Shown piece after piece: positions 24,261 through 46,768 of a stretch of DNA of 64,000 nt. Both the position numbers and the translations under genes were made by a program. Under the pieces are notes generated by a model. That model saw only the letters and a list, made by a program, of their open reading frames with translations. It was not told where the DNA came from and did not search any database. Within the stretch, counting starts at the first letter, position 1. Each line of letters begins with the position of its first letter. Source of the stretch: Deltaproteobacteria bacterium (GTDB taxonomy: Bacteria > Desulfobacterota > GWC2-55-46); assembly GCA_015075075.1 (NCBI GenBank), contig JABTVA010000006.1, positions 1 to 64,000 of the forward strand, given 5' to 3'.

Positions 24261-25085
24261 TTACCTCAAGAGACCGAGTACGTTCTGAGGCAGCTGGTTC
24301 GCCTGCGCGAGGACCGAGGTGCCGGCCTGGACCATTATCTGGTTCCGAGTGTACTGGGCGGTCTCCATCGCGAAGTCCGCGTCCCTTATCCTCGATTCCG
24401 CGGCCTGGAAGTTGGTGTATGTGACCTGCAGGTTCGAGAGGGCTGCGGTAAGCCTGTTGCTGGACGCACCGTAGATGGCGCGGGCGTCGTTTATGGTCTT
24501 GAGGGCGGAGTTTATGGCGCTCAGGGTCTGGAAGGCCTCGTCCCTGGTCGATATGGCCCCGGACACAAGACCGAGGACGCCGGTGGTGAGCGCATTGAGG
24601 CTTACGCTCAGCTCGTCGTTCGTGGTGTTCTTGAAGCCTATGAACATCGTGAGGGCGGCGGTGCCGCCGTCGAGGATCTTGTAGCCGCCGAATTCCGTGG
24701 TGGCCGCGATCCTGTCGATTTCCTTGATGAGGGTGTTGAACTCGTCGCTGTAGTAGGACCTGTTGTCGTCGTCCAGGGTGCCCTGGGCAGCGCTGGCGGC
24801 GAGTTCGCCCATCCTCGTGACGATGTTGGTTATCTGCTCGGCGGCCTTGTCGCTTATCTCCATCGCGCTTATGCCGTCATTGATGTTCCTGATGGACGCC
24901 TGTATCATCCTGGACTGGCTGCGGAGCTGGTCCGCCCTGCCGAGGCCGGCGGCGTCGTCGGCGGCGCTGTTGATCCTGAAGCCTGACGAAAGCCTGGAAA
25001 CGCTTACCTTGAGCTGGGAGTTGGTGACTGCGAGGTTCTGCTGCGCTACAAGAGCGGATACGTTGGTATTGATTACGAGTGACAT
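24261..25085 (-). CDS. fliC: Flagellin
   Basis: Major filament subunit, 274 residues, a short flagellin. The conserved N-terminal D0/D1 region (INTNVSALVAQQNL, SRLSSGFRINSAADDAAG) and C-terminal D0 (TSVLAQANQLPQNVLGLLR) are complete. The central domain is reduced to about 80 residues, rich in Thr/Ser that could be glycosylated. The ATG at 25085 follows aaggaggg. A FliA promoter, a CsrA-type hairpin and a second GGA site lie in the leader. The adjacent Maf gene and pse cluster indicate a glycosylated filament (inference). Confidence 0.96.
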   Translation of the reverse strand: MSLVINTNVSALVAQQNLAVTNSQLKVSVSRLSSGFRINSAADDAAGLGRADQLRSQSRMIQASIRNINDGISAMEISDKAAEQITNIVTRMGELAASAAQGTLDDDNRSYYSDEFNTLIKEIDRIAATTEFGGYKILDGGTAALTMFIGFKNTTNDELSVSLNALTTGVLGLVSGAISTRDEAFQTLSAINSALKTINDARAIYGASSNRLTAALSNLQVTYTNFQAAESRIRDADFAMETAQYTRNQIMVQAGTSVLAQANQLPQNVLGLLR

Positions 25086-25092
25086 TCTGTTA

Positions 25093-25125
25093 CCCTCCTT
25101 AGTGTTTGGTTCGGCATCCTTGCCG
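25093..25125 (-). promoter_or_regulatory. Putative CsrA-binding sites in the flagellin leader
   Basis: On the minus strand the leader forms the hairpin cggca-agga-tgccg (25112-25125). Its core reads CAAGGAUG, an exact match to the CsrA core consensus CARGGAUG with GGA in the loop. A second GGA lies in the Shine-Dalgarno (aaggaggg, 25093-25100), about 20 bases downstream. This two-site layout is that of the Bacillus subtilis hag leader, where CsrA blocks translation. csrA and fliW are in the same window. Confidence 0.75.
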
Positions 25126-25206
25126 TTTTTTTTTCGGGTCCTGCCCCGGCCTTTTCCGACCTGCCTCCCTTTCGGCCTGTCTTGGGCTGAAGCCCTCTTG
25201 ATGGTA

Positions 25207-25234
25207 TTATCGGAAAGCCGTCTGAAATCCTTTA
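25207..25234 (-). promoter_or_regulatory. FliA (sigma-28) promoter for flagellin
   Basis: On the minus strand TAAAGGAT, 12 bases, TCCGATAA. The -10 matches GCCGATAA at seven of eight positions and the -35 core TAAA is exact. The spacer is one base longer than the Escherichia coli consensus. The same 12-base spacer occurs before flgM. It lies about 120 bases upstream of the flagellin start. Confidence 0.82.
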
Positions 25235-25243
25235 GGGGAAAAT

Positions 25244-25843
25244 TCAGGCGTTGAAGTGGAAAAGTTTTTCCTCCATCTCCCCGACAAAGGGAGAGAGCTC
25301 GTATTCCATGAGGTCGGCGAGCGCGACATGGTCGCCGGATTCCCTGGCCTCCTTCATGTCCTCGAGGAAATTGACTATGGGGCCGAAGTAAGAGGCCGGG
25401 TTGACGTTGAAAAGGTCCATATTGTACTTCTCTCCGCCCTTGACCAGGGCGTCTATGGTCCTCACCACCTCGACAAGGCCGTCGAAAACCGACGAGAACG
25501 ACGCGTCCGCCCTGGTGTTCCCGGTCCTGAGATCGCTTATGCAGAGCCTTATATTGTCCCCGGTGACCCTCAGGTATTCCTGGGCGAGGTCGAGGCCCTC
25601 GAGGGCCACCTCCTCCATCGAGGCGGTCTTGAGGACAAAGCCCCTGTGCACGGAAAGGGGTTTCTTCATGACCTCGCTCCCCCTCCACCCCGAAAGCCTC
25701 TCCCCGTCGACCCAGAGCTCCATTACGAAGCGCCTGTGGGACGTGAGGTCCTTCTCGACCGCGTCTATAAGCTCCCCTATCGTCGAGCTCCTGCCGCGGT
25801 CCTCGAAATCCAGCCTTGTGTCGTCCAGGTATACCTCTGTCAT
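25244..25843 (-). CDS. Hypothetical protein between maf and flagellin
   Basis: 199 residues from the ATG at 25843, which overlaps the maf stop (ATGA). No family recognised. The N-terminal 75 residues look like a mixed alpha/beta domain (VYLDDTRLDF, MELWVDGERLSGW). From about residue 90 it is helical and acidic, ending in ELSPFVGEMEEKLFHF. No signal peptide or membrane helix. The tight coupling to Maf and the position just before the flagellin promoter point to a role in flagellin modification or delivery, but that is context only. Confidence 0.7.
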   Translation of the reverse strand: MTEVYLDDTRLDFEDRGRSSTIGELIDAVEKDLTSHRRFVMELWVDGERLSGWRGSEVMKKPLSVHRGFVLKTASMEEVALEGLDLAQEYLRVTGDNIRLCISDLRTGNTRADASFSSVFDGLVEVVRTIDALVKGGEKYNMDLFNVNPASYFGPIVNFLEDMKEARESGDHVALADLMEYELSPFVGEMEEKLFHFNA

Positions 25844-27759
25844 GTCTGTATTCTCCTCAGGTTCGTAAAGGGGCGTCCGTGCCCGGTATGGCCCTTGAGC
25901 GCCCTGGATGCTGCCATGAGGACCGGCCCGTATTTTCCGCAGGTCTCTCTTACCTTGCCGTAGGAGGAGGCCATGGAATCGAGCTCCCGCCTTATGAGCT
26001 TTTCCGGGTCGTTTTCGTCGTGTTCGTCCCGCAGGCGCTCCTTGAGCCTGTACGTATATTCCATCAGGGCCTCCCATATGAAAGGCGAGCTCTCGGCGGA
26101 CTTGAAAAGCCTCTCCTCCAGCCTTTTAATCCTCGCAACGCCTGACTCTATCTCGCGCGGGTCCAAGTGGTCCCTCAGGAGCTTCCTGATGGAAGATACC
26201 TCCTTGAGTATAGAATCGGCAAATCGGCCTGCTTCCTTTAGCTTCATCTGCATGGCCTCAAGCGATGATGAAAGCCCCTTGAGGTCGGCCGGTTTGGCCG
26301 AGGACCTGGCCGCTTTAATGACCTCATCGAGCTGCACGTCATTTCTTGCATATCTTTCAAGCACTTGGGAAAGAGGGAGGTGCTCCATCCCCTCTATATA
26401 GGCCCCGCCCTCCGTCGCGTTTATGACATTCAATGAAACACCCTTTTTTTTCATCACGGCCAGGTAGTTCTCGAACCACTGGTGGAAGGTCACCCAGTCG
26501 TACTTGCTCGGCACCGGCTTGCCGTCAACGCCCTTGAGCCACATGAGCTTGAAGGCGCTCCTTGCCTTTTCGCTCAGGGTCACATAGTCCTCCTCGATTA
26601 CCACCTCGCCTTTTTCCTCGTCTATCCTGACGTCCTGGGCCATGTAGACCCCGCCCTTCGCGTGAGTGCCGCTCTCGCCGAAACACAGGTCCTGGCCTAT
26701 GAAGATTATCGGGCTGCACCCCAGCATGACCCCGATATCGAGCGCGGCCGTGGTAACGCTTCCGCCGCTCGCCGGGAAGTAGTCAGAGCCGAAAAACCCC
26801 GCATGCTCGCTGCCGAGCGTCATGAACGGGCTGAAAAAGACGAACTTCTCCTTCACCTCCCTCGTGAACATGCCGGGGTGCGAGACCTCTCCGAGTATTA
26901 GCCTGGTCTGCCGGTCGTTTCCGTCATACGCGAAATACTCGGGCAGATCGACCTTCTCGGAGGCTATTATGAAGTCCGGCACGACCCCGTGCATGAGGAG
27001 CGGCTTATATGCGGTGATGGCCGCGATGACGACGGCCTTGCCCCTGGCCTCCCTGAGGAGTTGGGCGTTCTTATGGAGCGACGGCCCGGCGCCGGCTATG
27101 ACGAGCGGCATCCCCTTGAGACTGCCCCTCAGGGCGTCTATGGGCGTGCAGCCGAGTATCTGCGGGATGTTCTCAAGGTAGTTCCTTATCCAGGCCTCCC
27201 TTGAGTCCATGTCGGTCCTGATATTGACCTTGTTGCTTACCTGCGCGTTGTTGACCTTGTTTATGAAATCAAGGTACTCCTTCGGGAAGCCCGTCTTATA
27301 GGGGCTGGTCGTATAGCAGAGGAGGTCGTCGAAGCCGTCCATGCTTCTTACCCTCGCGACCACGCCCTGCATGTCGTCGCAGAGGAAGACATCGTCGAGA
27401 GCGAGGATGTCGGAAAGGTCTACCTGCCTCAAGACCCCGTTAAGGACCTCAGGCAAAGGCTCGTAGACCACCAAATTTTTCTGTCCTTTTTCCACGAGCG
27501 CCCTGAGGAGGTACCCGCAGCCCAGGCCGAAGAGGAGCACCCAGTGCGCCTTTTTTGAGACCAGTTCCTCGGCCTGCGCCCCTGCCTCCTTTGCCGGGTC
27601 GTACGCGCTATGAAAGAGGCGCCCCATGTGCCTGAATGTCGGCTCCCCGGACCTGGCGGCCTCGACCTTGACGGCCTCGCCGCTCCATCCGGCTACGCGC
27701 CCGGCAAGGGCCCTGTCCTTCTTCCCTATGGCCTCGATGTTTTTTTCAAGCAGCCCCAT
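25840..27759 (-). CDS. Motility accessory factor (Maf) family flagellin glycosyltransferase
   Basis: 639 residues. The central MptE-like (DUF115) domain is clear: KGMPLVIAGAGPSLHKN near 230, TAYKPLLMHGVVPDFII near 270, and FIGQDLCFGESGTHAKG near 390. An N-terminal Rossmann-like region (LLFGLGCGYLLRAL, VVYEPLPEVL) and a C-terminal helical part complete the usual Maf plan. Maf proteins transfer nonulosonic acids such as pseudaminic acid to flagellin in the cytoplasm. It sits between the pse cluster and flagellin, which fits that job. Confidence 0.88.
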   Translation of the reverse strand: MGLLEKNIEAIGKKDRALAGRVAGWSGEAVKVEAARSGEPTFRHMGRLFHSAYDPAKEAGAQAEELVSKKAHWVLLFGLGCGYLLRALVEKGQKNLVVYEPLPEVLNGVLRQVDLSDILALDDVFLCDDMQGVVARVRSMDGFDDLLCYTTSPYKTGFPKEYLDFINKVNNAQVSNKVNIRTDMDSREAWIRNYLENIPQILGCTPIDALRGSLKGMPLVIAGAGPSLHKNAQLLREARGKAVVIAAITAYKPLLMHGVVPDFIIASEKVDLPEYFAYDGNDRQTRLILGEVSHPGMFTREVKEKFVFFSPFMTLGSEHAGFFGSDYFPASGGSVTTAALDIGVMLGCSPIIFIGQDLCFGESGTHAKGGVYMAQDVRIDEEKGEVVIEEDYVTLSEKARSAFKLMWLKGVDGKPVPSKYDWVTFHQWFENYLAVMKKKGVSLNVINATEGGAYIEGMEHLPLSQVLERYARNDVQLDEVIKAARSSAKPADLKGLSSSLEAMQMKLKEAGRFADSILKEVSSIRKLLRDHLDPREIESGVARIKRLEERLFKSAESSPFIWEALMEYTYRLKERLRDEHDENDPEKLIRRELDSMASSYGKVRETCGKYGPVLMAASRALKGHTGHGRPFTNLRRIQT

Positions 27760-27854: not shown

Positions 27855-29813
27855 TTAGACCCGGAGGAAGAAGGAGTCCTCGCCTGGAAGCTCCGTGTAT
27901 CTCAGCATGGGTACCGTATACAGCCTTGACTTGTCGGTCGATATCTCCACCGCCTTATCCCTGTCGCCTATCCTCAGCCAGCCCTCGGTAGCGCCGAGGC
28001 ACGAGCTTGCGGAAACACCCTGGCTGACGGGCTCCTCGTGGGCGAGCGAATGCCCTCCGAGGATGAACCTCTCCGGGCCCGGGCCGCCGTTGACGGTCTC
28101 GAACCAGAGGCTTTCGCGGTCGAAGCTCGAAGGGACGAGGGTGAATATCCCCGCCCGAAGCGACGACGCCGCGAGGCCGTTGACCTTGAGCCTGTAGGAT
28201 ATCCCGACCTCCGGCTCCGTCTTCGATATGTCGTACCTCTTCCAGAGGACCCCGATGTCGAGCGGGCTCTTTATGAGGACGACTACCTTCTCGCGCTCCT
28301 CCTTTACCTCCACGTGCGAACGGCCGAGGTCGGTCGTCTGCTTCCCCTCGCGCGAGGTATGTATCATGTGGCCGCTGAAGTAGTCGGCCCCGAGCCTCAT
28401 GTCCTCGTAATGGCCGTGAGGCAGGGTCCCGAGAAGGGGCGCGTTCGAGACCGACGGGAAGACGAGCGATTTTATCGCATAGCCCTTGTTAGGCATGAAC
28501 TCGGCGACAACGCCAGGCGTCGAGATCCTGAGCTCGCTCTCGGAAGACCGGACCTCTGAGCGCCCTTCGGCGCCAGTTGATGCGCCGTCCGCGCGCCCCT
28601 CCTCCCCGCTAAGGGCAAGAGCCGGGGACACGGGGTTTCCCCCGTACACCCAGGCAAGGAGCGGGGTCCTGTGCTGGTGGTTTCCGAGAAGCCTCTCGGT
28701 CTCCATCTTGAGCCAGCCGAGCCTGTTCTGGAACCAGGCGTACTTCTCGTCTATCGTGTTGGTCCTGTAATCGCTCCCCCAGAGGTCGCAGAGCACCTCC
28801 TTGAAGTCCTCTATCGATTCCTTCTCAAGGGCGCCCTGCCTGATGAGGGCCTTCAGGTTGTCGTAGACCCTGTGGCATTCGGTGTTCACGTGTATGCTGT
28901 CCCTGCCCGAGGCGGCCCAGCGTAGCGGGTTGTATTTCTCCTGTTTCTTGCAGACTACCGGGGTCTCGACCGACTCGAGCCTTACGAGGTTCCCTGCGCC
29001 CTCGCGTCCCCTGAGTGATTCGAGCATGCGGCCCGGGGTCGTAAGCCTTACCCTCGGGTCTTCAGCCGCCTTCCTGAGCAAGCCCGCCATCCTGGCGTAC
29101 TCATCCGCTGCCGTCGGCTCGCCTCCTGGCCTGTAGCCGAAGACCTCGGCGTCGTTACTGTAGGCCGTGAACCCCCTCTCCTCGTCCCCGTCCTTTGGCG
29201 CGTGGGAGAAGAGATACTCGAAGTACTCGGCCTCGGATATCTCGCCGTGCACGCACCTCTGGAACTTCTGGAAGGCTATGGAATGGCTCCATATGATTTC
29301 CACTTCAGTGGAAAGCCCGGCTGCCCTCTGCGGGAGGTACTTGTACCGGAGAGGGTACCTGTTATGCTGGAACGAGTTGTTCCAGTCCATGATTATCGCC
29401 TCGTACCCGGCCTCCTTATAAAGGTCCACGAGGCCCCTTGAGAAGGTCTGCTCGTTTACGAGGGCTATGTTCGGTCTCCTCCCCAGGAGGTCCAGATAAT
29501 ATTTGTTCCCCAGCTCCAGGTTCCACCTGTTTACATCCGTCGGAACCAGCGGAAATATCGACTGGGAATAGCCCGAGCCGATGAACTCGCATCTCCCCTC
29601 GTCCCAGAGCGCGCGGAGCCTCTCGATGAAATAGGGGTCTATGGTGTTGACCTCCTTAAGGGTCCACGCCGTCATCTCGATGGCGACGGGTATGCCGCTC
29701 TCGGCAAGGCCAAGGAGCGGGGCATAACACCTCTCGACCACGAGCGGGAAATGCTCCCTCGGGATGGAGGAGAAGGCGAGGTTACAGTGGAACATCGTGT
29801 ACAGGTTAAGCAC
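27855..29813 (-). CDS. GH57-like glycoside hydrolase / polysaccharide-active protein
   Basis: 652 residues from a GTG at 29813 placed 3 bases after the IolB-like gene. The N-terminal FHCNLAFSSI, LWDEGRCEFIGSGYSQSIFP and ALVNEQTFS segments match the (beta/alpha)7 barrel of family GH57, and the C-terminal half is beta-rich. The Glu in the NEQTF segment is a candidate nucleophile (inference). The stop at 27855 is followed in frame by 29 more codons (GEFDDTAWWVWRGFNEAVFT region) up to a stop at 27765, so the true C-terminus may lie there. The substrate is unknown. Confidence 0.72.
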   Translation of the reverse strand: MLNLYTMFHCNLAFSSIPREHFPLVVERCYAPLLGLAESGIPVAIEMTAWTLKEVNTIDPYFIERLRALWDEGRCEFIGSGYSQSIFPLVPTDVNRWNLELGNKYYLDLLGRRPNIALVNEQTFSRGLVDLYKEAGYEAIIMDWNNSFQHNRYPLRYKYLPQRAAGLSTEVEIIWSHSIAFQKFQRCVHGEISEAEYFEYLFSHAPKDGDEERGFTAYSNDAEVFGYRPGGEPTAADEYARMAGLLRKAAEDPRVRLTTPGRMLESLRGREGAGNLVRLESVETPVVCKKQEKYNPLRWAASGRDSIHVNTECHRVYDNLKALIRQGALEKESIEDFKEVLCDLWGSDYRTNTIDEKYAWFQNRLGWLKMETERLLGNHQHRTPLLAWVYGGNPVSPALALSGEEGRADGASTGAEGRSEVRSSESELRISTPGVVAEFMPNKGYAIKSLVFPSVSNAPLLGTLPHGHYEDMRLGADYFSGHMIHTSREGKQTTDLGRSHVEVKEEREKVVVLIKSPLDIGVLWKRYDISKTEPEVGISYRLKVNGLAASSLRAGIFTLVPSSFDRESLWFETVNGGPGPERFILGGHSLAHEEPVSQGVSASSCLGATEGWLRIGDRDKAVEISTDKSRLYTVPMLRYTELPGEDSFFLRV

Positions 29814-29816
29814 GGG

Positions 29817-30539
29817 CTAAACCTCAAGCCATTTGAATTTCGGGTCCGTATTGGGCCTCAAGGCCCTGCCGCTCCCGGCGAGGAACCATAGGTAGTAAAG
29901 AGAATGTCCGGGCATGGCCGATACCGGGTGATAGCCCCAGGGTATCGTTACGGCGTCGTAGTCGCCGACCATGAAGGAATGGCTCCCCTCCCCGCCGTAT
30001 ATCGTCTGGGTGCCGAACCCGCCCGCCGGGTCGAGCCTGAAAAGATATATCTCCTCCATCCTGGCCTCCTGGCCGGGGATTTCGGTATCGTGCTTATGTG
30101 GCGGGAAGCTCGACCAGCCCCCGGGAGGGTTGAACGTCTCGCCGAGGACTAGCCTCGACGCGCCCTCCTCAAGGCCGATTATATCCACGACCTTCCTCTT
30201 CCAGGCGTCCTTTCCAACCGTCTTCTCCCTGCCGGAAGGCACGTGGAAAACGGCCCTCTTTTCATCAGTCCTGGCCTTGCATAACGCAAGCTCGCTGTAT
30301 CTTGAGGCCTTTATCGCAACGCTCGAATCCCTCGGGACGTACAGGGCAGAGCCTGGTGTTTTCCAGACGCTCTCCCTTTGAAGCCTGTACGCGCCGCCCT
30401 CTGAGGAAAAGGCGGCATCGCCCGTAAGCGGGACTATGGCTATTTCGTACTCGCCTGTCTCAAGGGTAAAGGAATCTCCGGCGTCGAGCACAAGGAGGTC
30501 GAGCGCAAGGTATTCAAGCTCGGAGCCGCTGAATACCAT
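29817..30539 (-). CDS. IolB-like cupin (5-deoxyglucuronate isomerase family)
   Basis: 240 residues with the IolB signature: PPHKHD, GQEARMEEIYLFRLDP, then DYDAVTIPWGYHPVSAMPGH and YYLWFLAG. These supply the cupin metal ligands (His in PHKHD, the Glu of EEIY, the His of GYHP). In inositol breakdown IolB isomerises 5-deoxyglucuronate. No other iol gene is here. Given its neighbours (GH57-like, ATP-grasp, SDR, pse genes), it more likely acts on a sugar acid of the flagellin glycan. Function is by family, substrate by inference. Confidence 0.8.
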   Translation of the reverse strand: MVFSGSELEYLALDLLVLDAGDSFTLETGEYEIAIVPLTGDAAFSSEGGAYRLQRESVWKTPGSALYVPRDSSVAIKASRYSELALCKARTDEKRAVFHVPSGREKTVGKDAWKRKVVDIIGLEEGASRLVLGETFNPPGGWSSFPPHKHDTEIPGQEARMEEIYLFRLDPAGGFGTQTIYGGEGSHSFMVGDYDAVTIPWGYHPVSAMPGHSLYYLWFLAGSGRALRPNTDPKFKWLEV

Positions 30540-30612
30540 ATTGAGCCCTTGTCTTTAGCGGCCCTTTATTTACCGGGTTAAGCATGTTTCCTCGCGGGAA
30601 CGGTAGTAATCC

Positions 30613-31757
30613 TCAATGTCCTGCCGCCCTGTCCCAGTTCTCCAGCGCTTCGGTCCGGGTGCTACCTATAGCGATTATGTAACAGACCCTGTGGCCGCAG
30701 TTCCTGTGGAAGTATCTCATCGCCTGGCCTTACCATGAGAAAGACCTCCGCGAGCCCGGTAGCTTTCACCTCTTCAAGGCCCTCGATCGAGCTTACAACT
30801 CCCGGCTCGGAAAGACAGCCTGCAGATTGCGGTCCTGTCGAGGTGGAAGTGAATACTTCCTGACCGGAAGCCTGCTGCGAGGGCAATGGCATCTTCTGCG
30901 GCTCAAGGCGGTTGCGAGCGGTGTCGTATACTGCGAATGGAAGCTGCCTGAGAGCCTCGCCGGAAGCTCGATGACCATCGGCCCTTTCGTCATTATGGTG
31001 TCGGCCTTGTACGGGCCGAATTCGATGCCAAGTGAGGTCGCGGCCCTTGTCACGAGCCCGTAAAGGCCTTCCTGGGCCGAAGCCGTGAGGGACGTGGGGT
31101 TCGTATGGCCTGTCTCTGGGAAGGCCGGAGCCGAAGTGCCTGTCAACTATGCCGAACCTGTAATGCCTGCCCTTGTGCACGACAAGCTCCACACTCTGCT
31201 CGTCTCCCTCTACATACTCTCTGAGCGCGGTCCGGGTGGATGAATGGTTTTGCGTCCTCAAGGGCCTCGGGGAGCTCATCCAGAGAATCTATCCTGCGCG
31301 GCCCCTTGACGCTGCGTTGTCTATGGCCTTCACCATGCACGGAAACCGACCAAAGCTGCCGCCTCACGGGCCTCTGTTAGGTTGCCGCCTCTCGGCATAA
31401 GGGGTCGGAACACCGTCCGCAAGCCACCTCTTCTTCATAAGCCATTGGTTATTCGACCTCTCGGCGACTTCCACGGATGCCTGGAAGGCTGAGGGCGTCC
31501 GAACAGAAGCCGCGGTTATGGCCACGTCAGCGCCAGCGACAACGCCGCCCAGATTGAGCGTTCCCGATTCTCAAGCGCCCATCTGACGTGCGCTTCGGGT
31601 CTTTATATCCAGCACAAGCGGCAGGTCTGCATCTTTAAGCCCTCTGCCTCCAGGCCCTGTCAGAGGCGACGGTAAAGAGCCCCATGCCCCGGCCTTTTTA
31701 TAAGAGGGACCCTGCATGGACCCGCGCCAGTATCAATATGGATTTCTTTGTCATCAT
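30613..31757 (-). CDS. ATP-grasp domain protein, frame-disrupted
   Basis: Start at 31757 (ATGATG, overlapping the SDR stop). An N-terminal pre-ATP-grasp segment reads MTKKSILILAR...GLFTVASDRA in two frames. The middle reads EGDEQSVELVVHKGRHYRFGI. The metal- and ATP-binding end IEFGPYKADTIM...GPMVIELPARLSGSFHSQY and AEVFLMVRPGDEILPQ are clear. At least four indels scatter between 31700 and 30680. ATP-grasp ligases join a carboxylate to an amine or another acid. In a glycan cluster it may decorate the sugar with an amino acid (inference). Confidence 0.7.
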
Positions 31758-32511
31758 ATGCCCCAGGCGAGGAATCCGCCATCGACGGGTATGACAGCGC
31801 CGGTCACGAAATCGGATGCCGCGCTCGCGAGATAGACGGCAGTCCCTGCCAGCTCCTCGGCCCTGCCGAGGCGCTTCATGGGGGTGTTCGCCAATATCCT
31901 CTCAAGCCTCCGCCTACCAGCACCTTCTCGTTAAGCGCGGTCCTGAAGACGCCTGGCGCAATGGCGTTCCACCTGTATGTTGTCAGGGGCGAGCCTGACC
32001 GCCAGGTTCATCGTAAGGACACGAGTCCCGCCTTTGACGACGTGTACGCGGCCGCGTCCTTTAACGCCCTGAAAGAGCCGAGCGAGGCGATATTGATTAT
32101 CTTCCCGCTGCCCTGCTTTTTCATCAACGTCCCGACGGCCCTGCATACCCTGAACGCGCCCGTGAGGTTGGTGTCGAGGACGCGGCTCCACTCCTCCTCG
32201 GTCACTTCGAGGGTCGGCTTTTAAGGTGCACCTCGCTGAATTGACGAGTATGCGTATGCCCCGGCCTTTTCGCGTCTCCTGGACGGCCTGCCTGACCGAT
32301 TCCCGTCGAGTATGTCCATGCGGACCGTGAATGCCGACCCGCCGGAGCCCTCTATGAGGCGCACCGTCTCGTCAAGCTTCGATACGTCCCTGCCCGCAAC
32401 CGCAACGGTTGCGCCCGCCCTTGAGAGGCCGACGGCTATGGCCTGGCCGAGGCCGCTTCCGCCCCCGGTTACGAGCGCGGTCTTGCCTGTGAGGCTGAAG
32501 AGCCCTGTCAA
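31754..32511 (-). CDS. SDR-family oxidoreductase, frame-disrupted
   Basis: Classical short-chain dehydrogenase. NAD(P) motif TGGGSGLG near the start, then LDTNLTGAFRVCRA, the catalytic set with IINIAS and YTSSKAGL, and a C-terminus reading SDFVTGAVIPVDGGFLAWGI before the stop at 31754. Indels near 32300-32220 and 32000-31930 split it. Overlaps the methyltransferase stop at its start and the ATP-grasp start at its end, so these genes are translationally linked. Confidence 0.8.
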
Positions 32512-33332
32512 TTCTCTACCCTCCTTGCCCTCAAGGCGATGGTGTCGCCGATGCCGAGGCGCTTGGCTATGGTGTCTATCACCTTCTTATTCAGGTCCGG
32601 TATCGAGCCCTTGGGGTTGCAGCTCCCGAACCTTACCCAGCTTACGACCGCGAAGCCCGTTTCCGCAAGGAGCCTGAAGAGCGACTCCTGCGAAAAGAGG
32701 TGTATGTGCTCTACGGGCATGTAATAGAGCCACTTGTCCCCGAAAAGCCCGGATATCGTCCCGGTGCAGGGCGTCTGTACGATAAGCTCTCCTCCGGGCT
32801 CAAGGAGCGTCCTCGCCTTAACAAGCGCCTCCCGCGGCGCCGTCATGTGCTCGATGACGTCCCAGAAGCTTATGAGGCCGTACCGTCCCTGCATGTCCGA
32901 AAGCTCCATAACCCTGCAGTCGAGCCCGTTTTTCCTGGCTTCACCGACCATCTCTTTCGAAACATCTATGCCCTCGGCCTCTACGCCGTATCTCTTGAGG
33001 TATTCAAGGAACTGCCCATTGGCGCAGCCCACGTCGAGGACCCGCTTCCCCTTGAGCCCCGAATGTTCTATCCCCAGGTCGCAAAATGTAAGGTCCTTTT
33101 CGGCAAAGTATGCCTCCCTGTACTCCTTGGAAAAATGGATGTGTATGGAAGGGTTGTCGTCCCTTTTCGCCATGTAGCCGGATTCGTAGAACCCGGCTAT
33201 TTCACGGGGAGCGGGGTATCTCGCCATCCTTTCGACGCCGCATCCGGCGCACCTGACGTATTGGCATCCCGAGATGGTCGCGGCAGGCACGGCTTCGCCC
33301 CCGCCGCATATCCTGCACCTGTCGAAGCTCAT
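32508..33332 (-). CDS. Class I SAM-dependent methyltransferase with zinc-ribbon N-terminus
   Basis: 274 residues from the ATG at 33332. Cys pairs CRIC and CAGC at residues 5-33 form a zinc-ribbon-like start. The SAM motif VLDVGCANGQFLEYL is near residue 95, followed by SFWDVIEHM and LLEPGGELIVQTP, the pattern of sugar O-/C-methyltransferases found in glycan clusters. Overlaps the upstream methyltransferase stop (ATGA). Confidence 0.85.
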   Translation of the reverse strand: MSFDRCRICGGGEAVPAATISGCQYVRCAGCGVERMARYPAPREIAGFYESGYMAKRDDNPSIHIHFSKEYREAYFAEKDLTFCDLGIEHSGLKGKRVLDVGCANGQFLEYLKRYGVEAEGIDVSKEMVGEARKNGLDCRVMELSDMQGRYGLISFWDVIEHMTAPREALVKARTLLEPGGELIVQTPCTGTISGLFGDKWLYYMPVEHIHLFSQESLFRLLAETGFAVVSWVRFGSCNPKGSIPDLNKKVIDTIAKRLGIGDTIALRARRVEN

Positions 33333-34234
33333 GCCTTTACCCCGTAGATGACCATTTCCCTGCCTATGCCGTGCCTGGCCATAAGCTCGTACATATCCTT
33401 CTTGAAACCCGCGAGGCCCGGCTCGTTCAACAGGAGGTCGAGCCTCTTTCTCCTTGCGTGGCATTCCCTTCCGAGGCTGTCGTTTCCGACGTAGTTGTCT
33501 CCCATGAGGAGGAAAAGGTCGATGGGGAACATGGAAGTCCTCTTAATGACCCTGAACCCGGACCTTTCAAGAAGGGCCGAGAGCGACTCGAAGCTGAAAT
33601 AATTTATATGGTGCGGAGGGGCGAGCCAATACGGGGCGAACCCGAGCCTGTCGGTCAAAACCTTCTGGACCGGGCTGAAGTCGTTTGGGACGACACAGCA
33701 TATGACGCCGCCATCCGAAAGCAGCCCGGCGGCTGTCCGAAGGAGCGCGCCTGGCTCCGGCACGTGCTCAAGCACCTCTGAGATGTGGAGCGCGTCGAAC
33801 CTCCTCTTTATACCTGAGGCCGTCTCCTTATTGAAAAAGCCGTTTATGACCTCGACGCCGAGCGTCATGGCATGGGCCGAGGCCTGTCTCGACGGCTCTA
33901 TGCCCAGGGCGCTCCAGCCCCGCTCCATGCCCCGTTTGAGGAAGTACCCGGGGCCTGAGCCGATATCGAGTATCGAACGCCTCCCGTCCCCGAGCCTCGA
34001 TTCGAGGAAATCCAATCTATCGTCGTAGACCGACCTCCACCAGTCCAGGTCCTCCATGACGCGCTCGATGAAAAGCGGCTTTTCGTCCCTGTAATATTCC
34101 TCGGCGTAGACCCTATCAAGCTCGGCGGACCCTGGCACGGGGTCCATGTGAATGAAGCCGCATTCGGTGCAGTCGATTACGCCGTAGCCGTTCGCATTAC
34201 CTACCACATTTCCCGTATGAGTCATCACTGCCAC
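33329..34234 (-). CDS. Class I SAM-dependent methyltransferase
   Basis: 301 residues from the GTG at 34234, which directly follows the PseG-like stop and has a gggggag ribosome site; an ATG at 34225 is the alternative. SAM motif ILDIGSGPGYFLKRG near residue 90, EVLEHVPEPGALL near 150 and LLSDGGVICCVVPND near 170. CTECGFIHMDP near the N-terminus resembles the second half of a zinc ribbon. Probably methylates a sugar intermediate of the glycan cluster, together with the next gene. Confidence 0.83.
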   Translation of the reverse strand: MAVMTHTGNVVGNANGYGVIDCTECGFIHMDPVPGSAELDRVYAEEYYRDEKPLFIERVMEDLDWWRSVYDDRLDFLESRLGDGRRSILDIGSGPGYFLKRGMERGWSALGIEPSRQASAHAMTLGVEVINGFFNKETASGIKRRFDALHISEVLEHVPEPGALLRTAAGLLSDGGVICCVVPNDFSPVQKVLTDRLGFAPYWLAPPHHINYFSFESLSALLERSGFRVIKRTSMFPIDLFLLMGDNYVGNDSLGRECHARRKRLDLLLNEPGLAGFKKDMYELMARHGIGREMVIYGVKA

Positions 34235-35236
34235 CTATTTCTCCCCCGCTTCCAGTGCCCCGTCGAGGAGCGACCTTATAAGCGACGCTATCCGGAAAGC
34301 GCCCTTCCCGTCCGTAAGGCTCATCGCCCTCGCGGACATCTCCTCCCACTCCCGCCTGTTCGTCTTGAATAAGTCGACGGCCTCGGCACTGCTACCCGCG
34401 CCAACTTCCCTCTGGTAACCGAGGCTCCTGGATATCCCGAGCCTTTCGATTGCGGCGAGGTCCTCCCTGTCGCTCTCGTAATTGCCGATAAGGACCGAGG
34501 GCACGCCCATGTACGCAAGCTCGAACACTGTCGTGCCCATTGCCGTAAACGCGAGGTGCGCCTCCTTCATAAGCGGGGCGAGGTCCTTGACGTTGTGGAC
34601 GAACCTGAACCTGCCGTCGCAGCCGGCCATGAAATCGTCAAGCGCGCCTCCGGTCCTGAAGGCCGGCCCTATGACGGCGGTAACTTCTATGTCCTTTACG
34701 TCGTAGAGGCCCTTGAGCGCAAGCTCGGTGAGGTTAAACGGGTCCGAGCCTCCCATGGTGACGAGCACCTTAAACGGCAGGGAGTGGCCTGGCCGCTTCC
34801 CGCCCCTCGCCCGCCTGAAGTTCTCGCCGATGATTATGTATTCGTTCCCGGAAAGGAGGTTCCCGTTAACGCCACCCCTGTAAAGAGGGGTCGGCATGAT
34901 GACCGCGTCGGCCTCTCCGGAAGAGACGTTGTCTATGAGGACGACCTTCTTGCCTTCGTCCTTGAGGGCGTGCACCTGCTCGCAGACGTCCCTCTTCGTG
35001 TCTATGACGACGACGCCGCCGGTCAAACGGCCCGCGTGCCTGCCCGTTATGGGATAGGTGATATGGAAGAGCGCCTCGGAGTTGAGCCGGTCTATGACTG
35101 GCCGTTCGTTATTCACGAGGAAATGGAGCGGCAGCTCTTCCGACTCGAGCGCGTGGGCGATGTTGATGCACCGCATCACGTGCCCCATCCCCACGGAGGA
35201 GCCGCCCTCGGTCCAGAAAGTCACGCCGTTTTGCAC
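34235..35236 (-). CDS. pseG: PseG-like UDP-sugar hydrolase (nonulosonate pathway)
   Basis: 333 residues from the GTG at 35236, behind gggaggg; no ATG gives the full first strand. The loop GMGHVMRC with its His is the PseG catalytic signature. VTMGGSDPFNLTELAL and FTAMGTTVFELAYMGVP are the nucleotide-binding loops of the GT28-like fold. PseG removes UDP from the 2,4-diacetamido sugar before condensation with phosphoenolpyruvate. Overlaps the Gfo/Idh gene. Confidence 0.88.
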   Translation of the reverse strand: MQNGVTFWTEGGSSVGMGHVMRCINIAHALESEELPLHFLVNNERPVIDRLNSEALFHITYPITGRHAGRLTGGVVVIDTKRDVCEQVHALKDEGKKVVLIDNVSSGEADAVIMPTPLYRGGVNGNLLSGNEYIIIGENFRRARGGKRPGHSLPFKVLVTMGGSDPFNLTELALKGLYDVKDIEVTAVIGPAFRTGGALDDFMAGCDGRFRFVHNVKDLAPLMKEAHLAFTAMGTTVFELAYMGVPSVLIGNYESDREDLAAIERLGISRSLGYQREVGAGSSAEAVDLFKTNRREWEEMSARAMSLTDGKGAFRIASLIRSLLDGALEAGEK

Positions 35237-36234
35237 CGGGCCTCCCTCCCCTCGAGGAGGTTCCTCGATCCCTTTACCCGGAGCGCCAGCTCCAGCGTCG
35301 CTATCCCGTCGCGCACGCCGGCGCGCGGTGGAAGCCCCCTCTCGATGCACTCGAGGAAATGCCTCGATTCGGCCATATACATTTCATTTACCTCGAAGCC
35401 GATCTTCCCCGAGTACCACTTGCCAAGCTCCGCCGAATAGGTCTCCACCGTCCCGTCCAGCAGGTCGGCCCTTATGGTCCCTCTCGAACCGGCAACTACC
35501 AGCCTGTGCTGGTTGGCCCTCTGGATGAAATCGGTCTGCCAGTTCACGTAAGCCCCGCTTTTAAGCCTCATGACCCCCGTCGCGATGTCCTCGACGTCCA
35601 TCTCGAGCCCGCTCACTCTGTCGACGAAGGCGAAGACCTCGTCGACCTCGCCGAAGAGCCACCTGATGTTGTCGAGCCCGTGTATGCTCGTCAGGACCAC
35701 CCCGCCGCCGAGTTCCTTCCGAGCGGCGTATTCGGTCCTGTAATCGGCCTGGGGGTGCCAGTCCGGGAGATAGTGCCCGCCGTAGTAATTTACGTGGTGG
35801 ACCGTGCCGATGACCTCTGACGCAAGGAGGCTCTCTATCTGGAGGAATACGGGATGGAACCTGTAGCACATGGCCATCATGGCCGTTATGCCCTTCTCGT
35901 CCGCGAGCTTCAGAAGCTCCGTTACCCGGTCCATCCTGTCGGAAAGCGGTTTTTCTATGAGGATGTGCACCCCGCGCCTGGCGAGCTCAAGCGCCATGTC
36001 GAGGTGCATGGAAGACGGCGTGCATATGACAGCCGCGTCAGGAAGCTTCGCGAGCGCGTCGTTGAAGTTCGTGGTAAAGACCGGCCTCTCGATGCCCCTT
36101 GCCGCCTTTTCGAGCATGGCCGTATTCGTGTCGCAGAGTATGAATTCTTTTACGCCGAGCGCCGACAGGTTCTTTATATGCCGTTTCCCTATAGAGCCGC
36201 AGCCCACTACGAGTGTTTTAAGGCCTTTTCCCAT
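35221..36234 (-). CDS. Gfo/Idh/MocA-family oxidoreductase
   Basis: 337 residues. N-terminal Rossmann motif VVGCGSIGKRHIKNL, then CTPSSMHLDMALELARRGVHILIEKPLS with the EKP signature, and a C-terminal domain with GGGVVLTSIHGLDNIRWLFG holding the likely catalytic His. NAD(P)-dependent sugar dehydrogenase family. In nonulosonate clusters such genes often sit beside a class III aminotransferase and an SpsF-type gene, as here. The exact substrate is unknown. Confidence 0.85.
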   Translation of the reverse strand: MGKGLKTLVVGCGSIGKRHIKNLSALGVKEFILCDTNTAMLEKAARGIERPVFTTNFNDALAKLPDAAVICTPSSMHLDMALELARRGVHILIEKPLSDRMDRVTELLKLADEKGITAMMAMCYRFHPVFLQIESLLASEVIGTVHHVNYYGGHYLPDWHPQADYRTEYAARKELGGGVVLTSIHGLDNIRWLFGEVDEVFAFVDRVSGLEMDVEDIATGVMRLKSGAYVNWQTDFIQRANQHRLVVAGSRGTIRADLLDGTVETYSAELGKWYSGKIGFEVNEMYMAESRHFLECIERGLPPRAGVRDGIATLELALRVKGSRNLLEGREARCKTA

Positions 36235-36279
36235 CAGTCCGATTCTCCTTGCCTCTTTCCGGTAGATTGAAACTCGCGC

Positions 36280-37617
36280 TCAGTTCCTCTGCCTGAAGAC
36301 GACGCCTACAGGCTCTCCTTCCAGAAACCCAGCCGGGTTTCCGCTATCTACCGCCTTTTTCAATACCGAAAGCGCCTCCTTCGAGGCCTCTATGGTCTTT
36401 GCTATGTCCTCGTCGGTATGGGAGTAGCTTATGAAGACCGGCCCCCCGTAAAGCACTCCCCTCTTTACGGTCTCCTGGAGGAATAAGCTCTTTAAAAGGA
36501 GGTCGTCTTCTCCGGAGGAGTTCCTCGCCGATATGCCTCCCCTCGGCGGCTTGCCGGTTATGCTGAAATCCACGCCTGTCTCCCGGGCGAACCCGTTTAT
36601 TCCGTCATGGAGCCTCTTGCCGGCCTCCCAGATCCGGTCTATCACGGGCTTCGTCATAAGCTCGTTTATGGTCGCCCTGGCGGCGGAAAGGCCTATCGCG
36701 TCTCCGGAATAGGTCATGGAGAAGAAGACCTCGTTCAATTCCTTCATGAACTCGCGTTTTCCGGCTATGGCCGATATAGGGAACCCGTTCGCCATGCCCT
36801 TCCCGAAGCAGGCGAGGTCAGGGACGACCCCGTAATATTTCCCCGCGCCCCCGAGCGAATACCTGAAGCCGGTCACTATCTCGTCGAGCACGAAAAGCGC
36901 GCCGTTCCTGTTCGCGATATCCTTTGCGAGCTGGAGGAAGTTCTTTCCGGTCGCCTGGTCAACGAGCGGGTCGGTGCCCGGGACCTCCATTATGACGCAG
37001 GCTATCTTTCCGGGGTTCTCGGCGAAGGCCCTCTCAAGCGTCTCTATCCTGTTGTATTCGAACTTGTGCATGTAGTCGGCGAGAGGGCGCGGGATGCCCT
37101 TGTTGCGGGGCGTCACTACCGCGTACCAATCCTGGCAGCCGTGGTAGCCGCAGTACGCGATGTGGTCCCTTCCCGTAGAGGCCCGAGCGACCTTGACCGC
37201 GGCGCTCGTGGCGTCGGCGCCGTTCTTGCCGAACCTCACCATCTCGGCGCACGGGATGATCGAGCGCATGAGCTCCGCCACCTCGACCTCGAGCGGGTGC
37301 ATGAGGGTGAAGGTCGTCCCCTCCCTGACCTGCCTTATGACAGCCTCGCTCACCGGAGCGTAGTCGTAGCCCAGTAGTATCGGCCCGAGGGCCAGGGGGT
37401 AGTCTATGTACTCGTTACCGTCCAGGTCCCATACGCGGGCGCCCTTGCCGCGGCAGAGGTACTTGGGGGTCACGCCCCTTACGAACTGGTCGGGCCCCTT
37501 GCTGAGCGTCTGCGTGCCTGCGGGTATGACCTCGATTGCGCGCTCCCACATGGCGTCGGATGCGGGGAAAAGACTTTCATTCGAATGCTTCTTAAGCGCC
37601 GGCTCCATTGTCGTCAT
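36280..37617 (-). CDS. Class III aminotransferase, glutamate-1-semialdehyde mutase-like
   Basis: 445 residues, PLP fold type I. VLDEIVTGFRYSLGG holds the Asp of the cofactor pocket and CFGKGMANGFPISAI the Schiff-base Lys. FGKNGADATSAAVKVAR and GYHGCQDWY match the glutamate-1-semialdehyde aminomutase branch. The location within the sugar cluster argues against haem synthesis. It probably aminates or rearranges a sugar intermediate (inference). About 120 bases upstream contain part of a repeat element. Confidence 0.84.
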   Translation of the reverse strand: MTTMEPALKKHSNESLFPASDAMWERAIEVIPAGTQTLSKGPDQFVRGVTPKYLCRGKGARVWDLDGNEYIDYPLALGPILLGYDYAPVSEAVIRQVREGTTFTLMHPLEVEVAELMRSIIPCAEMVRFGKNGADATSAAVKVARASTGRDHIAYCGYHGCQDWYAVVTPRNKGIPRPLADYMHKFEYNRIETLERAFAENPGKIACVIMEVPGTDPLVDQATGKNFLQLAKDIANRNGALFVLDEIVTGFRYSLGGAGKYYGVVPDLACFGKGMANGFPISAIAGKREFMKELNEVFFSMTYSGDAIGLSAARATINELMTKPVIDRIWEAGKRLHDGINGFARETGVDFSITGKPPRGGISARNSSGEDDLLLKSLFLQETVKRGVLYGGPVFISYSHTDEDIAKTIEASKEALSVLKKAVDSGNPAGFLEGEPVGVVFRQRN

Positions 37618-37683
37618 CCACCTTTCGGAATAATTTCGTTCGGCTCTTTTTTAAAAAAACAACCTCAAAATTTAGAGATTTTT

Positions 37684-37725
37684 GCGCTGACAACGACGGA
37701 GAACGACTTTCTCAGCAGCCTGTTA
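37684..37725. repeat. Truncated relative of the 120-bp palindromic element
   Basis: gacaacgacggagaacgactttctcagcagcc aligns by eye with the right half of the element at 5858-5977 (gacaacgaagcagatggactttttcagcagcc), including the terminal cagcagcc. Adjacent sequence (37640-37683) is unusually AT-rich. Confidence 0.5.
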
Positions 37726-37736
37726 GATTTTTTAGC

Positions 37737-38525
37737 CTATACCGCCTTGTCCTCGCTCAACGACTTGGCATACCCTTCGTTCCGCTCGATATCCGCGTTT
37801 ATCTCCAGAAGCGAAGGGTGCGCCTCGAGGAACCTCAGTGTCTCTTCCATGTGGAAAATCCTGCCTTTCGCGCCGATGCCGTCGTATATGGCGTTTACGA
37901 GCGTCAGGTCCCTCTCGTCGTCCACGGTCCAGCGCATCTTCGAGAGGTCGGTTTCGCACCGTATCTTGCATATCCTGAAAATGTTATGGTTCTTCCATAT
38001 ATACGGGGTAACATGCTCGCGCTCCGATGAAAGCGCGGCCCGCATATAGGCCTTCTCAAGCGCCGCGAACGAGAAGACCTCGGCGTCGAGCCCGTCCGGG
38101 AAGCTCGGGTCGATGCTTACGTAATCGAGACCGCCCTCGCTGAACCTCCTTATAGCCCTGTCCACGAGCGCCGGGTCGAGCAATGGGCAGTCGGAGGTTA
38201 TCCTCACGACAGTCCTGGCCTTGGATGCCAGGGCGGCGTAGAAGTACCTGTCCAGGACGTCGTTTACGCTCCCCCTGTGGCAGCACACGTTGTTCTCGGC
38301 GCACCAATCCGCGATCCTGTCGTCCGACCCGTCCTGGGTCGTCGCCACCACGATCTTCTCGACGAGCGCGGAGGCGGCGAGCCTCGTCACCACGTGCCAC
38401 AGCATGGGTTTTCCGCCTATCTCCCTCATTACCTTGCCCGGGAGCCTGGTGGAGCCCATGCGGGCCTGCACTATCCCCACTACCGGGCCTATCGCGGCCT
38501 TGACGTCCTTATCCGTTATCTGCAT
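37737..38525 (-). CDS. SpsF-type cytidylyltransferase
   Basis: 262 residues. IVQARMGSTRLPGKVMREIGGKPM at residues 18-41 is the nucleotide-binding signature of the SpsF/CMP-nonulosonate transferase branch. ITSDCPLLDP and RWTVDDERDL follow. It should activate the nine-carbon sugar as its CMP ester. Canonical PseF/NeuA proteins begin with an ARGGSKR-type motif instead, so this is a non-orthologous replacement. Its start overlaps the pseI stop. Confidence 0.85.
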   Translation of the reverse strand: MQITDKDVKAAIGPVVGIVQARMGSTRLPGKVMREIGGKPMLWHVVTRLAASALVEKIVVATTQDGSDDRIADWCAENNVCCHRGSVNDVLDRYFYAALASKARTVVRITSDCPLLDPALVDRAIRRFSEGGLDYVSIDPSFPDGLDAEVFSFAALEKAYMRAALSSEREHVTPYIWKNHNIFRICKIRCETDLSKMRWTVDDERDLTLVNAIYDGIGAKGRIFHMEETLRFLEAHPSLLEINADIERNEGYAKSLSEDKAV

Positions 38526-39559
38526 AAGTCCTCGCTCCTTACCGGCATGTCCTTACGGAGGTCCCTCGCGGCGACGCTCCCTATGATATGCCCCAGTTCT
38601 TTAGGCTCAAGCCCGTATGCGTGGCGGACGAGCTTCAATTTGTCCGATGTGACGACCTCGCCTTTCCGTATGTCGGCGTTCGCATATACGGACCTCCTGG
38701 CGCCGGTCCTTTCGGCCATCTCGTTGGGCGACGGCCTCTTTATGCCGTCGCCGAGCGCCTTTTCGAGGTCCCTTACCCCGGATATCATGGTCTTCAACTC
38801 CTCGACCTCCATCGCGTACGGGTGGTCGGGGCCTTTGAGATTCCTGTCGAGGGTCAAATGCTTTTCTATGATGGAGGCCCCGAGCGCCACTGCCCCCAGT
38901 GCAACGGTGCTCCCAGGCGTGTGGTCGGATATGCCGACCGGGCAGGCGAATTCCCTCGCGAGCGCGGCCATTGCCCTGATGTTCACGTCCTCGTATGAAG
39001 GCGGGTAGAGCGAAGCGCAGTGCAGGAGCGCGACCTGGTGGTTCTTCTGCCCTGTTACGAGCTCGACCGCCCTCCTTACCTCTTCCATGTAGGCCGCGCC
39101 GGTTGATAATATGACCGGCTTCCCGAAGGAGGCGACCTCCTCGATAAAAGGCTCGTTCGTTAGCTCGCCTGACGCGAGCTTGAACGCCTCTACGCCTATC
39201 TCGTTCAAGAGCGCGGCCCTTTTGCTCTCGAACGGCGCGGAAAGGAAGGTTATCCCGACAGAGGCGCAGTGCACCTTCAGGATTTCATGCCATTCCTCCG
39301 GGAGCGCAAGCCTCTCCAATACAGGGTACGCCGGGTGCGGCGCCCATTTTCCGCTCCCGTCAGGCCTCAAGGGATTAAGGAGCCCCTCGGCAGTAAATGA
39401 CTGGAACTTTACCGCGTCGGCCCCCGCGTATTTCGCCGCCTCTATGAGCTCTTTGGCCCTCCCGAGGTCGGAGTCGTGGTTTGAGCCTATCTCGGCTATC
39501 ACATAGGCCGGGTATCCCGCGCCTACGGGCCTGGTCCCTATAGTGAATACGCTTCTCAT
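38516..39559 (-). CDS. pseI: Pseudaminic acid synthase (NeuB family)
   Basis: 347 residues from the ATG at 39559 (ribosome site aaaggcggg). Condenses a 6-carbon sugar with phosphoenolpyruvate. NeuB-family motifs: AEIGSNHDSDL, AGADAVKFQSF, KLASGELTN, GISDHTPG, EKHLTLDR and GPDHPYAME. A C-terminal SAF domain (SVYANADIRKGEVVTSDKL) is present. PseB, PseC and PseG homologs nearby favour pseudaminate over sialate or legionaminate. Confidence 0.88.
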   Translation of the reverse strand: MRSVFTIGTRPVGAGYPAYVIAEIGSNHDSDLGRAKELIEAAKYAGADAVKFQSFTAEGLLNPLRPDGSGKWAPHPAYPVLERLALPEEWHEILKVHCASVGITFLSAPFESKRAALLNEIGVEAFKLASGELTNEPFIEEVASFGKPVILSTGAAYMEEVRRAVELVTGQKNHQVALLHCASLYPPSYEDVNIRAMAALAREFACPVGISDHTPGSTVALGAVALGASIIEKHLTLDRNLKGPDHPYAMEVEELKTMISGVRDLEKALGDGIKRPSPNEMAERTGARRSVYANADIRKGEVVTSDKLKLVRHAYGLEPKELGHIIGSVAARDLRKDMPVRSEDLCR

Positions 39560-39590
39560 AACCCGCCTTTCAACCCGTATTACCGCCCTC

Positions 39591-39770
39591 TCAGGCGGCT
39601 TCACCGCGCCTTGCGGCGGACTTCCGCGCGCCGGCCTTTCCGGCGTCCTTTTTCTCCGCAAGCTCGCCTTCGCATTCGGGGCACGAGTATTTTCCGGACC
39701 TCATCATGTATTCGGCGCCCCATCCGCAGTATTCTTTCTTGCACTTCCCGCACACGTAGGTCGGCATCAT
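39591..39770 (-). CDS. Small zinc-ribbon protein between pseC and pseI
   Basis: 59 residues. Two Cys pairs, CGKC near residue 7 and CPEC near residue 32, form a rubredoxin-like zinc ribbon, followed by a Lys/Arg/Ala-rich basic tail. The start at 39770 follows gggggtgcg. It lies 15 bases after pseC and 31 bases before pseI on the same strand, so it is part of the operon. Function unknown. The basic tail would allow nucleic-acid or protein binding. Confidence 0.7.
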   Translation of the reverse strand: MMPTYVCGKCKKEYCGWGAEYMMRSGKYSCPECEGELAEKKDAGKAGARKSAARRGEAA

Positions 39771-42251: not shown

Positions 42252-42710
42252 TCAGACCTTTATCGGGAAGCTGGAAGGGTAATCGTCCCTGTCGATGACG
42301 CACTGGATGGCGTTCATGCTCTCGGCGTTGAAGACGACCGGGCCCTTGAGGTTCAGGCTCAGCTCCCTCGCGTCTCGGGCAACGCAGACCATCACGAGCG
42401 TTACAAGGCCTTCGGTGCTATCCGCACCAAGCTTCTCCATCTCCGATTTCTTGAGCGGGACCGAGTAACCGGGCTTGAAGGCGCTGGGGTCGGTAAGGAG
42501 AAAGGCCACTCCCGGGTCGTCTATCGACTGCATCCACCTGAACGTGCCCTGTTCGTCGTGGTCTATGATTATGAACCTCCTGAGCCTCTCGAAACCGGGC
42601 ATGGCCTGCACGAACCGGATGACCTTGTTCTCGGGGACCGATATCTCGCCGAAGCGGGTAGTCGAGAAGCTTATCGCGGACGAAGGAGCATTTGCCGTAG
42701 CGGTTATCAT
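42252..42710 (-). CDS. fliW: Flagellar assembly factor FliW
   Basis: Binds either flagellin or CsrA and so couples flagellin synthesis to export. 152 residues. The FliW pattern is present: TTRFGEISVPENKVIRFVQAMPGFE, IIDHDEQGTFRWMQSIDDPGVAFLLTDP, and VVFNAESMNAIQCVID near the end. Its start overlaps the csrA stop by 4 bases, the arrangement expected for antagonist and target. Confidence 0.95.
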   Translation of the reverse strand: MITATANAPSSAISFSTTRFGEISVPENKVIRFVQAMPGFERLRRFIIIDHDEQGTFRWMQSIDDPGVAFLLTDPSAFKPGYSVPLKKSEMEKLGADSTEGLVTLVMVCVARDARELSLNLKGPVVFNAESMNAIQCVIDRDDYPSSFPIKV

Positions 42711-42934
42711 TTTTTCCTGAATCCTTTCAATTTATCAGCCACTTCGCTCGGAAGCCCGGCGGCCTTCATGTTCGTTTCCTGTATCCTCAGGTATATCTCC
42801 TCGCGGTGCACCGCGCAGCTCTGCGGGGCCTGTATACCGAGCTTTACATGGTTGTCCTTGACCTCGACGACCACGAGCTTTATGTCGTCGCCGATCCTTA
42901 TCCCCTCTCCCGACTTCCTTGTCAGTACCAGCAT
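42707..42934 (-). CDS. csrA: Carbon storage regulator CsrA
   Basis: RNA-binding translational repressor. 75 residues with MLVLTRKSGEGIRIGDDI, VKDNHVKLGIQAP and VHREEIYLRIQ, including the key RNA-binding Leu4/Arg6 and Arg of HREE. The C-terminal tail is longer than in Escherichia coli CsrA, as in the FliW-controlled CsrA class, where the tail contributes to FliW binding. Coupled to fliW. The flagellin leader carries matching target sites. Confidence 0.96.
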   Translation of the reverse strand: MLVLTRKSGEGIRIGDDIKLVVVEVKDNHVKLGIQAPQSCAVHREEIYLRIQETNMKAAGLPSEVADKLKGFRKK

Positions 42935-42988
42935 ATCGCCCTCCCTGGCTCACTTGTTTTCCGAGCCTGCTGCCCGGTTATCCTATTT

Positions 42989-46453: not shown

Positions 46454-46768
46454 CTATTTCTTGGCTTGCAGGGCGTCCCTGACCGCCCGCTCTATCATCT
46501 TTTCCGCCACTTTGCCGGCGTCTACCTCGTAGCTCCCCTGGTCGACTTCGTTTTTGAGCTTTACTACCTTTTCGACCCTCATGTCAGGGACCGTGTCGAG
46601 GAGCGACTTGGCCCTCTGGAACTCCCTTGCCTTGGGTGATATGTCTACGCTGTCACCGGAGGTCGCTCCGCCGCTGCCGCCGCTTTTCTTGACGCTTCCG
46701 CCGTCCCCGGCCTTTTTTACGTAATTGTCAGTCCCGACTCCGCCTGGCTTTTTGCCGCCGATTTTCAT
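46454..46768 (-). CDS. flgM: Anti-sigma-28 factor FlgM
   Basis: 104 residues. The Gly/Lys/Ser-rich N-terminal half and the C-terminal signature VDISPKAREFQRAKSLLDTVPDMRVEKV...LKNEVDQGSYEVDAGKVAEKMI are diagnostic. Holds FliA inactive until exported through the finished hook-basal body. Preceded by its own FliA promoter, which makes a negative feedback loop. Confidence 0.94.
   Translation of the reverse strand: MKIGGKKPGGVGTDNYVKKAGDGGSVKKSGGSGGATSGDSVDISPKAREFQRAKSLLDTVPDMRVEKVVKLKNEVDQGSYEVDAGKVAEKMIERAVRDALQAKK

Follow-up and report, generated by a model that had tools for sequence, protein, structure and literature searches.

Organization of the flagellin and csrA-fliW genes

The window, the whole 64,000 nt stretch of DNA analysed here, carries a flagellin gene and, 17 kb from it in the same flagellar locus, csrA and fliW, located downstream of flgK and flgL (Table 1). 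The original prediction had placed csrA-fliW in the same locus as the flagellin gene, which is correct for the flagellar locus as a whole, given this distance. The start of fliW overlaps the stop of csrA by 4 nt (ATGA), and csrA is present as a single copy in the genome. FliW matched PDB entry 5dmb, a structure of FliW in complex with CsrA, and CsrA aligned with the CsrA of 1t3o over 71 residues. The RNA-binding residues L4 and R44 are present in CsrA, R44 being conserved in the CsrA proteins of the clade, and the extended C-terminus contains N55, which was found in 33/33 clade CsrA proteins. The flgM gene also lies in the window, the gene for FliA is located 900 bp beyond it and that for sigma-54 elsewhere in the genome.

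Table 1. Genes and putative regulatory features of the flagellin and csrA-fliW regions
Feature	Position	Strand	Description	Evidence
Flagellin gene	24261..25085	-	274 aa	Pfam Flagellin_N 2.6e-39, Flagellin_C 5.7e-25
Putative CsrA site 2	25092..25103	-	Hexaloop ACU-AAGGAG-GGU over flagellin Shine-Dalgarno (SD)	Conserved SD hexaloop
Putative CsrA site 1	25112..25125	-	Hairpin CGGC-AAGGAU-GCCG, CANGGANG hexaloop	Conservation, covariation
5′ leader domain	25136..25199	-	Nested helices P1-P2-P3, purine-rich loop RAAAGGRGGG	Covariation
Sigma-28 (FliA)-like flagellin promoter	25207..25235	-	CTAAAG-N-CCGATAA	Inferred
fliW	42252..42710	-	152 aa	Pfam FliW 5.2e-33; PDB 5dmb FliW E=2.5e-15
csrA	42707..42934	-	75 aa; L4, R44, N55	Pfam CsrA 4.7e-25
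Putative CsrA site B	42910..42925	-	Hairpin CUGAC-AAGGAA-GUCGG, CANGGANG type, csrA codons 4-9	Codon conservation
Putative autoregulatory CsrA site A	42938..42949	-	GCC-AGGGAG-GGC over csrA SD	33/33 clade csrA genes
flgM (anti-sigma-28)	46454..46768	-		Pfam FlgM 1.3e-17

The promoter boxes of the flagellin gene are TAAA (25231-25234) and CCGATAA (25207-25213), and a similar TAAAG...CCGATAA box was found upstream of nearly all clade flagellins. Counted from the transcription start predicted from this FliA-like promoter, the flagellin leader is about 120 nt long and carries, from 5′ to 3′, the structured 5′ domain, a stretch rich in A, the site-1 hairpin, a spacer and the SD hexaloop; on the minus strand it ends with ...AAAAAAAAACGGCAAGGATGCCGAACCAAACACTAAGGAGGGTAACAGA-ATG, the ATG being at 25085.

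Directly upstream of the flagellin gene is a gene with no Pfam match (25244-25843, minus strand), which is kept in nearly all relatives at about 32-98% identity and is adjoined by a gene for a Maf-type flagellin glycosyltransferase. Judged by the ORF translations, a large sugar/legionaminic-acid-like glycosylation cluster occupies 28000-42000, between the flagellin gene and csrA-fliW, which suggests that the filament may be glycosylated.

Two conserved hexaloops in the flagellin leader

The window leader was compared with those of uncultured Deltaproteobacteria. The clade set comprised 36 flagellin leaders, free of redundant copies, from the genus, family, order and class of this bacterium, spanning tandem flagellin paralogues as well as flagellins only 42-45% identical. 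The CANGGANG hairpin (site 1) was found 32-50 nt before the ATG in 36/36 leaders. Two further class members also carry it, giving 38/38 class flagellin leaders; one of the two is G053, a fragmented assembly that yielded no csrA or fliW. A search for relatives that had lost the hairpin and kept csrA and fliW found none in the class. The 5-bp hairpin with an AGGA loop that was originally predicted is present in the window sequence, but the form conserved in the relatives is a 4-bp stem with an ANGGAN hexaloop, since some of them have A.C or A.A in place of the inner A-U pair. The outer pair covaries in the clade as C-G, U-A or G-C and is unpaired in 3/14 distinct forms, and the three inner pairs are invariant throughout.

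The bare motif is weak proof of a CsrA site, because CAAGGATG occurs in 3 copies in the window versus 1.7 expected and GGCANGGANGCC in 51 copies in the genome versus 19 for the reversed pattern; its frequency was therefore dropped as evidence. Taken together, the conserved position, the loop and the covarying stem of site 1 are far beyond chance. CANGGANG is the apical hexaloop known for high-affinity CsrA/RsmE sites (PMC4894983).

A second GGA had been predicted in the Shine-Dalgarno sequence about 20 bases further on. It lies there, 21 nt downstream of the site-1 GGA, and is itself inside an ANGGAN hexaloop (site 2). This SD hexaloop was present in 36/36 clade leaders, with stems mainly of ACU:GGU, AUC:GAU or ACC:GGU. 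In the window's own lineage the SD stem has only 3 pairs, one being U.G, and the minimum free energy (MFE) fold of the whole window leader does not form it. The GGA-GGA spacing is 19-26 nt in 35/36 clade leaders, and in the one exception, with 37 nt, an extra hairpin is inserted. That additional hairpin (TGAGTT...AACTCA, leader L112) stands between the two CsrA sites and could restore the normal spacing. In the alignment of related leaders, which the original prediction had proposed, both GGA sites and their stems were kept in every relative and covaried.

Besides those of flagellin and csrA, no further CANGGANG hairpin in the window was found conserved before a gene start. A CsrA-target-like arrangement, the hairpin GGGCACGGACGCCC and an SD GGA 22 nt apart, precedes gene 25244-25843 (25868-25890, minus strand). 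It is not conserved, the hairpin being broken in relatives 90-98% identical, and this gene was rejected as a third CsrA target.

Structure of the 5′ leader domain

The 5′ domain is located between the FliA promoter and the site-1 hairpin. Covariance model analysis and pair counts revealed changes on both sides of helices P1 and P2 in the relatives. The structure as a whole has 7/16 such pairs and 98% paired cells, and 0/500 shuffles reached the observed values; these figures lean towards the structure because the alignment was fitted to it. Single-sequence folds of most leaders agree with the domain; the window's own sequence alone folds otherwise, and a local GGGC-UUCA-GCCC hairpin competes with the domain there. 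An Rfam search of the flagellin leader gave a chance-level match only.

Given the covariation of P1 and P2 and a loop, RAAAGGRGGG, that is retained across the clade, the domain could be thought to be the main control, acting as an additional CsrA site, as a standby or stabilising structure or as a ligand-binding RNA, with the CsrA hairpins secondary. However, the tandem paralogues L005 and L030 keep both CsrA hairpins with the domain apparently absent, and helix P3 by itself was not significant by single-sequence shuffling in any leader. The GGA of the loop is not strictly kept either, being replaced by G runs in L017, L018 and L006, and the loop was rejected as a strict third CsrA site. Control residing mainly in the 5′ domain is thus extremely unlikely, and the two hexaloops are the preferred regulatory elements.

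Dependence of the hairpins on csrA across the phylum

In csrA-bearing genomes of the phylum, a hexaloop hairpin was found in 43 of 54 flagellin leaders, 27 of them with both the upstream and the SD hairpins, and about one fifth had no detectable hexaloop. In csrA-lacking genomes of two families, most of whose assemblies are complete, none of the 8 flagellin leaders has either hairpin (43/54 versus 0/8, Fisher p=2e-5, with related genomes treated as independent). Six further genomes, mostly fragmented, lack csrA less certainly, and four of them keep a hexaloop, a mixed outcome that is expected if csrA was missed in the assembly. The exceptions to the match between csrA and the hexaloop may reflect assembly gaps.

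Stems vary widely in the wider phylum, with the loop constant and many pair changes on both sides. The sequences behind this covariation were picked for having a stem, so a fairer figure comes from every CANGGANG in the csrA-bearing leaders, where the stem was not a criterion: 35/39 upstream motifs (5.5 expected) and 38/46 SD motifs (6.5 expected) are flanked by at least 2 further complementary pairs, again with relatedness left out of the counts. Only 4 such motifs were found in 122 leaders of beta- and gammaproteobacterial flagellins. The hairpin sites depend on the presence of csrA across genomes.

This distribution bears on whether the hairpins work without CsrA, by stabilising a plentiful mRNA or by serving it as ribosome-standby structures. 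Flagellin transcripts are generally abundant, and a strong SD held in small hairpins together with a structured 5′ domain could tune stability or initiation. Such a role is very unlikely in view of the ANGGAN loop, which is held while the stems vary freely, and of the hairpins themselves, which are missing in the csrA-lacking genomes of the two families and rare in beta- and gammaproteobacteria. Recognition by CsrA remains the preferred explanation.

Putative CsrA sites on the csrA mRNA

The SD of csrA is also enclosed in a hexaloop, GCC-ANGGAG-GGC, which is present in 33/33 clade genes, with an outer pair of U-A, C-G, A-U or U-G where present. A second hairpin, site B, lies within the coding sequence. 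Every clade csrA gene encodes Thr5 by ACA, Lys7 by AAG and Arg6 by either AGG or CGG, so that the sole change within codons 5-7 falls on the free N of ANGGAN. The synonymous entropy of codons 5, 6 and 7 was 0, 0.44 and 0 bits, versus 0.5-1.9 bits at other conserved residues. The SD hexaloop and the codon 4-9 hairpin with its scarce synonymous variation imply autoregulation of csrA-fliW, for which the case, as read from sequence, is strong. We consider it fairly likely that CsrA represses csrA through the SD hexaloop and the codon site, and fliW by translational coupling, in which case one level of free CsrA would set flagellin, CsrA and FliW. If true, a second CsrA loop would keep the amounts of CsrA and FliW constant in the whole deltaproteobacterial class, and a CsrA site would dictate csrA codon choice over the depth of the class.

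An exact scan of 395 phylum genomes for the csrA-leader pattern was abandoned as the matches mixed csrA with chance, and the csrA leaders of 53 genes were therefore taken directly. In this wider phylum set only 17/53 csrA genes have the leader hexaloop, which is thus a lineage feature. One leader, L144, has an extra CANGGANG hairpin (GAGTCCAGGGATGGACTC) about 38 nt upstream of csrA, a possible third site.

Proposed FliW-CsrA-flagellin switch

The genes csrA and fliW were found in the identical 37 of 59 genomes, adjacent and with csrA first. Because the hairpins are conserved, are absent in the two csrA-lacking families and accompany a csrA and fliW that co-occur perfectly, the FliW-CsrA-flagellin switch, as originally predicted, very probably operates in this bacterium. 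CsrA binding and repression, FliW antagonism and relief, FliW-flagellin binding and csrA autoregulation are the steps we infer. A CsrA dimer would grip the upstream hexaloop and the SD hexaloop together and so block the ribosome on the flagellin mRNA. Export of cytoplasmic flagellin would free FliW from flagellin, and the freed FliW would bind CsrA at a C-terminal surface including N55, releasing the flagellin mRNA. Free CsrA would repress csrA translation through its SD and codon hexaloops and, via the 4-nt overlap, that of fliW too, holding the CsrA:FliW pool constant. One feedback switch would probably throttle the filament protein, CsrA and FliW in this way, and the whole scheme of a two-site flagellin target, relief by FliW and csrA self-repression via its own hexaloop pair appears highly likely.

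The antagonist could also be of another kind, with CsrA repressing flagellin here and Csr-type sRNAs or titration by the flagellin mRNA opposing it, FliW being secondary. No match to a CsrB-type sRNA was found in the genome. There are sub-threshold RsmZ-like matches, at 26 bits far below the cut-off of 44, but matches of this kind also arise in unrelated control genomes; the search covered the CsrB and RsmZ families, and an unrelated sRNA family would escape detection. In Campylobacter jejuni the flaA leader does itself titrate CsrA (PMC4894983). Against this, csrA and fliW are inseparable across the 59 genomes and N55 is invariant in the 33 clade CsrA proteins. A secondary role of FliW is accordingly unlikely, and FliW is the preferred antagonist.

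Comparison with known systems

The switch itself is already known, and one of its hosts, C. jejuni, is a diderm that has both FliA and sigma-54. Both genes are present here as originally predicted, but the combination is not new (PMC4894983). In the C. jejuni flaA leader, two ANGGA hexaloops are separated by 21 nt and the downstream one covers the ribosome-binding site. Further likeness to the present system lies in the diderm cell with FliA, RpoN and fliW and in the compensatory changes that support the leader structure (Dugar et al. 2016, PMC4894983). Unlike in C. jejuni, the leader here is longer, with an extra structured 5′ domain, and csrA is directly followed by an overlapping fliW; for the hexaloops in csrA itself, no C. 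jejuni counterpart was found described in the accessible text (PMC4894983). Added here are the phylum-wide conservation, the SD site as a hexaloop and the case for csrA-fliW autoregulation. The switch would thereby extend from model organisms to a phylum whose flagellin side was unexamined in the literature searched. With the CANGGANG hexaloop and the SD hexaloop as signature, CsrA control of flagellin would be readable from uncultured genomes.

In the former Deltaproteobacteria, the same broad lineage, Geobacter sulfurreducens CsrA requires N55 for FliW binding and FliW antagonises CsrA (PMC13407953, 2026); N55 is present here too. That study concerned biofilm, left the role of flagellin open and stated that direct CsrA-mRNA binding was still to be validated (PMC13407953).

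The Hag-FliW-CsrA system of Bacillus subtilis is similar in having two leader sites, one over the SD, a protein antagonist in FliW and a fliW/csrA overlap (PMC7652899; Oshiro et al. 2019, PMC6529632). There fliW precedes csrA, the reverse of the order found here. No CsrA site on the B. subtilis csrA mRNA was found reported in the accessible text of PMC6529632, versus two putative sites here, and no report of csrA autoregulation in any FliW system was found in the literature searched. Oshiro et al. (2019, PMC6529632) predicted that in other systems the abundance of FliW and CsrA has to be kept in check, and the csrA sites suggest a testable way in which this may be done.

In Escherichia coli, a CsrA site over the SD of csrA inhibits its own translation (Yakhnin et al. 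2011, as cited in PMC7652899). The putative CsrA site overlapping the csrA SD here resembles that autoregulation. Unlike E. coli, which uses the CsrB/C sRNAs and has no FliW, the present bacterium has a linked csrA-fliW operon and the additional putative site at codons 4-9.
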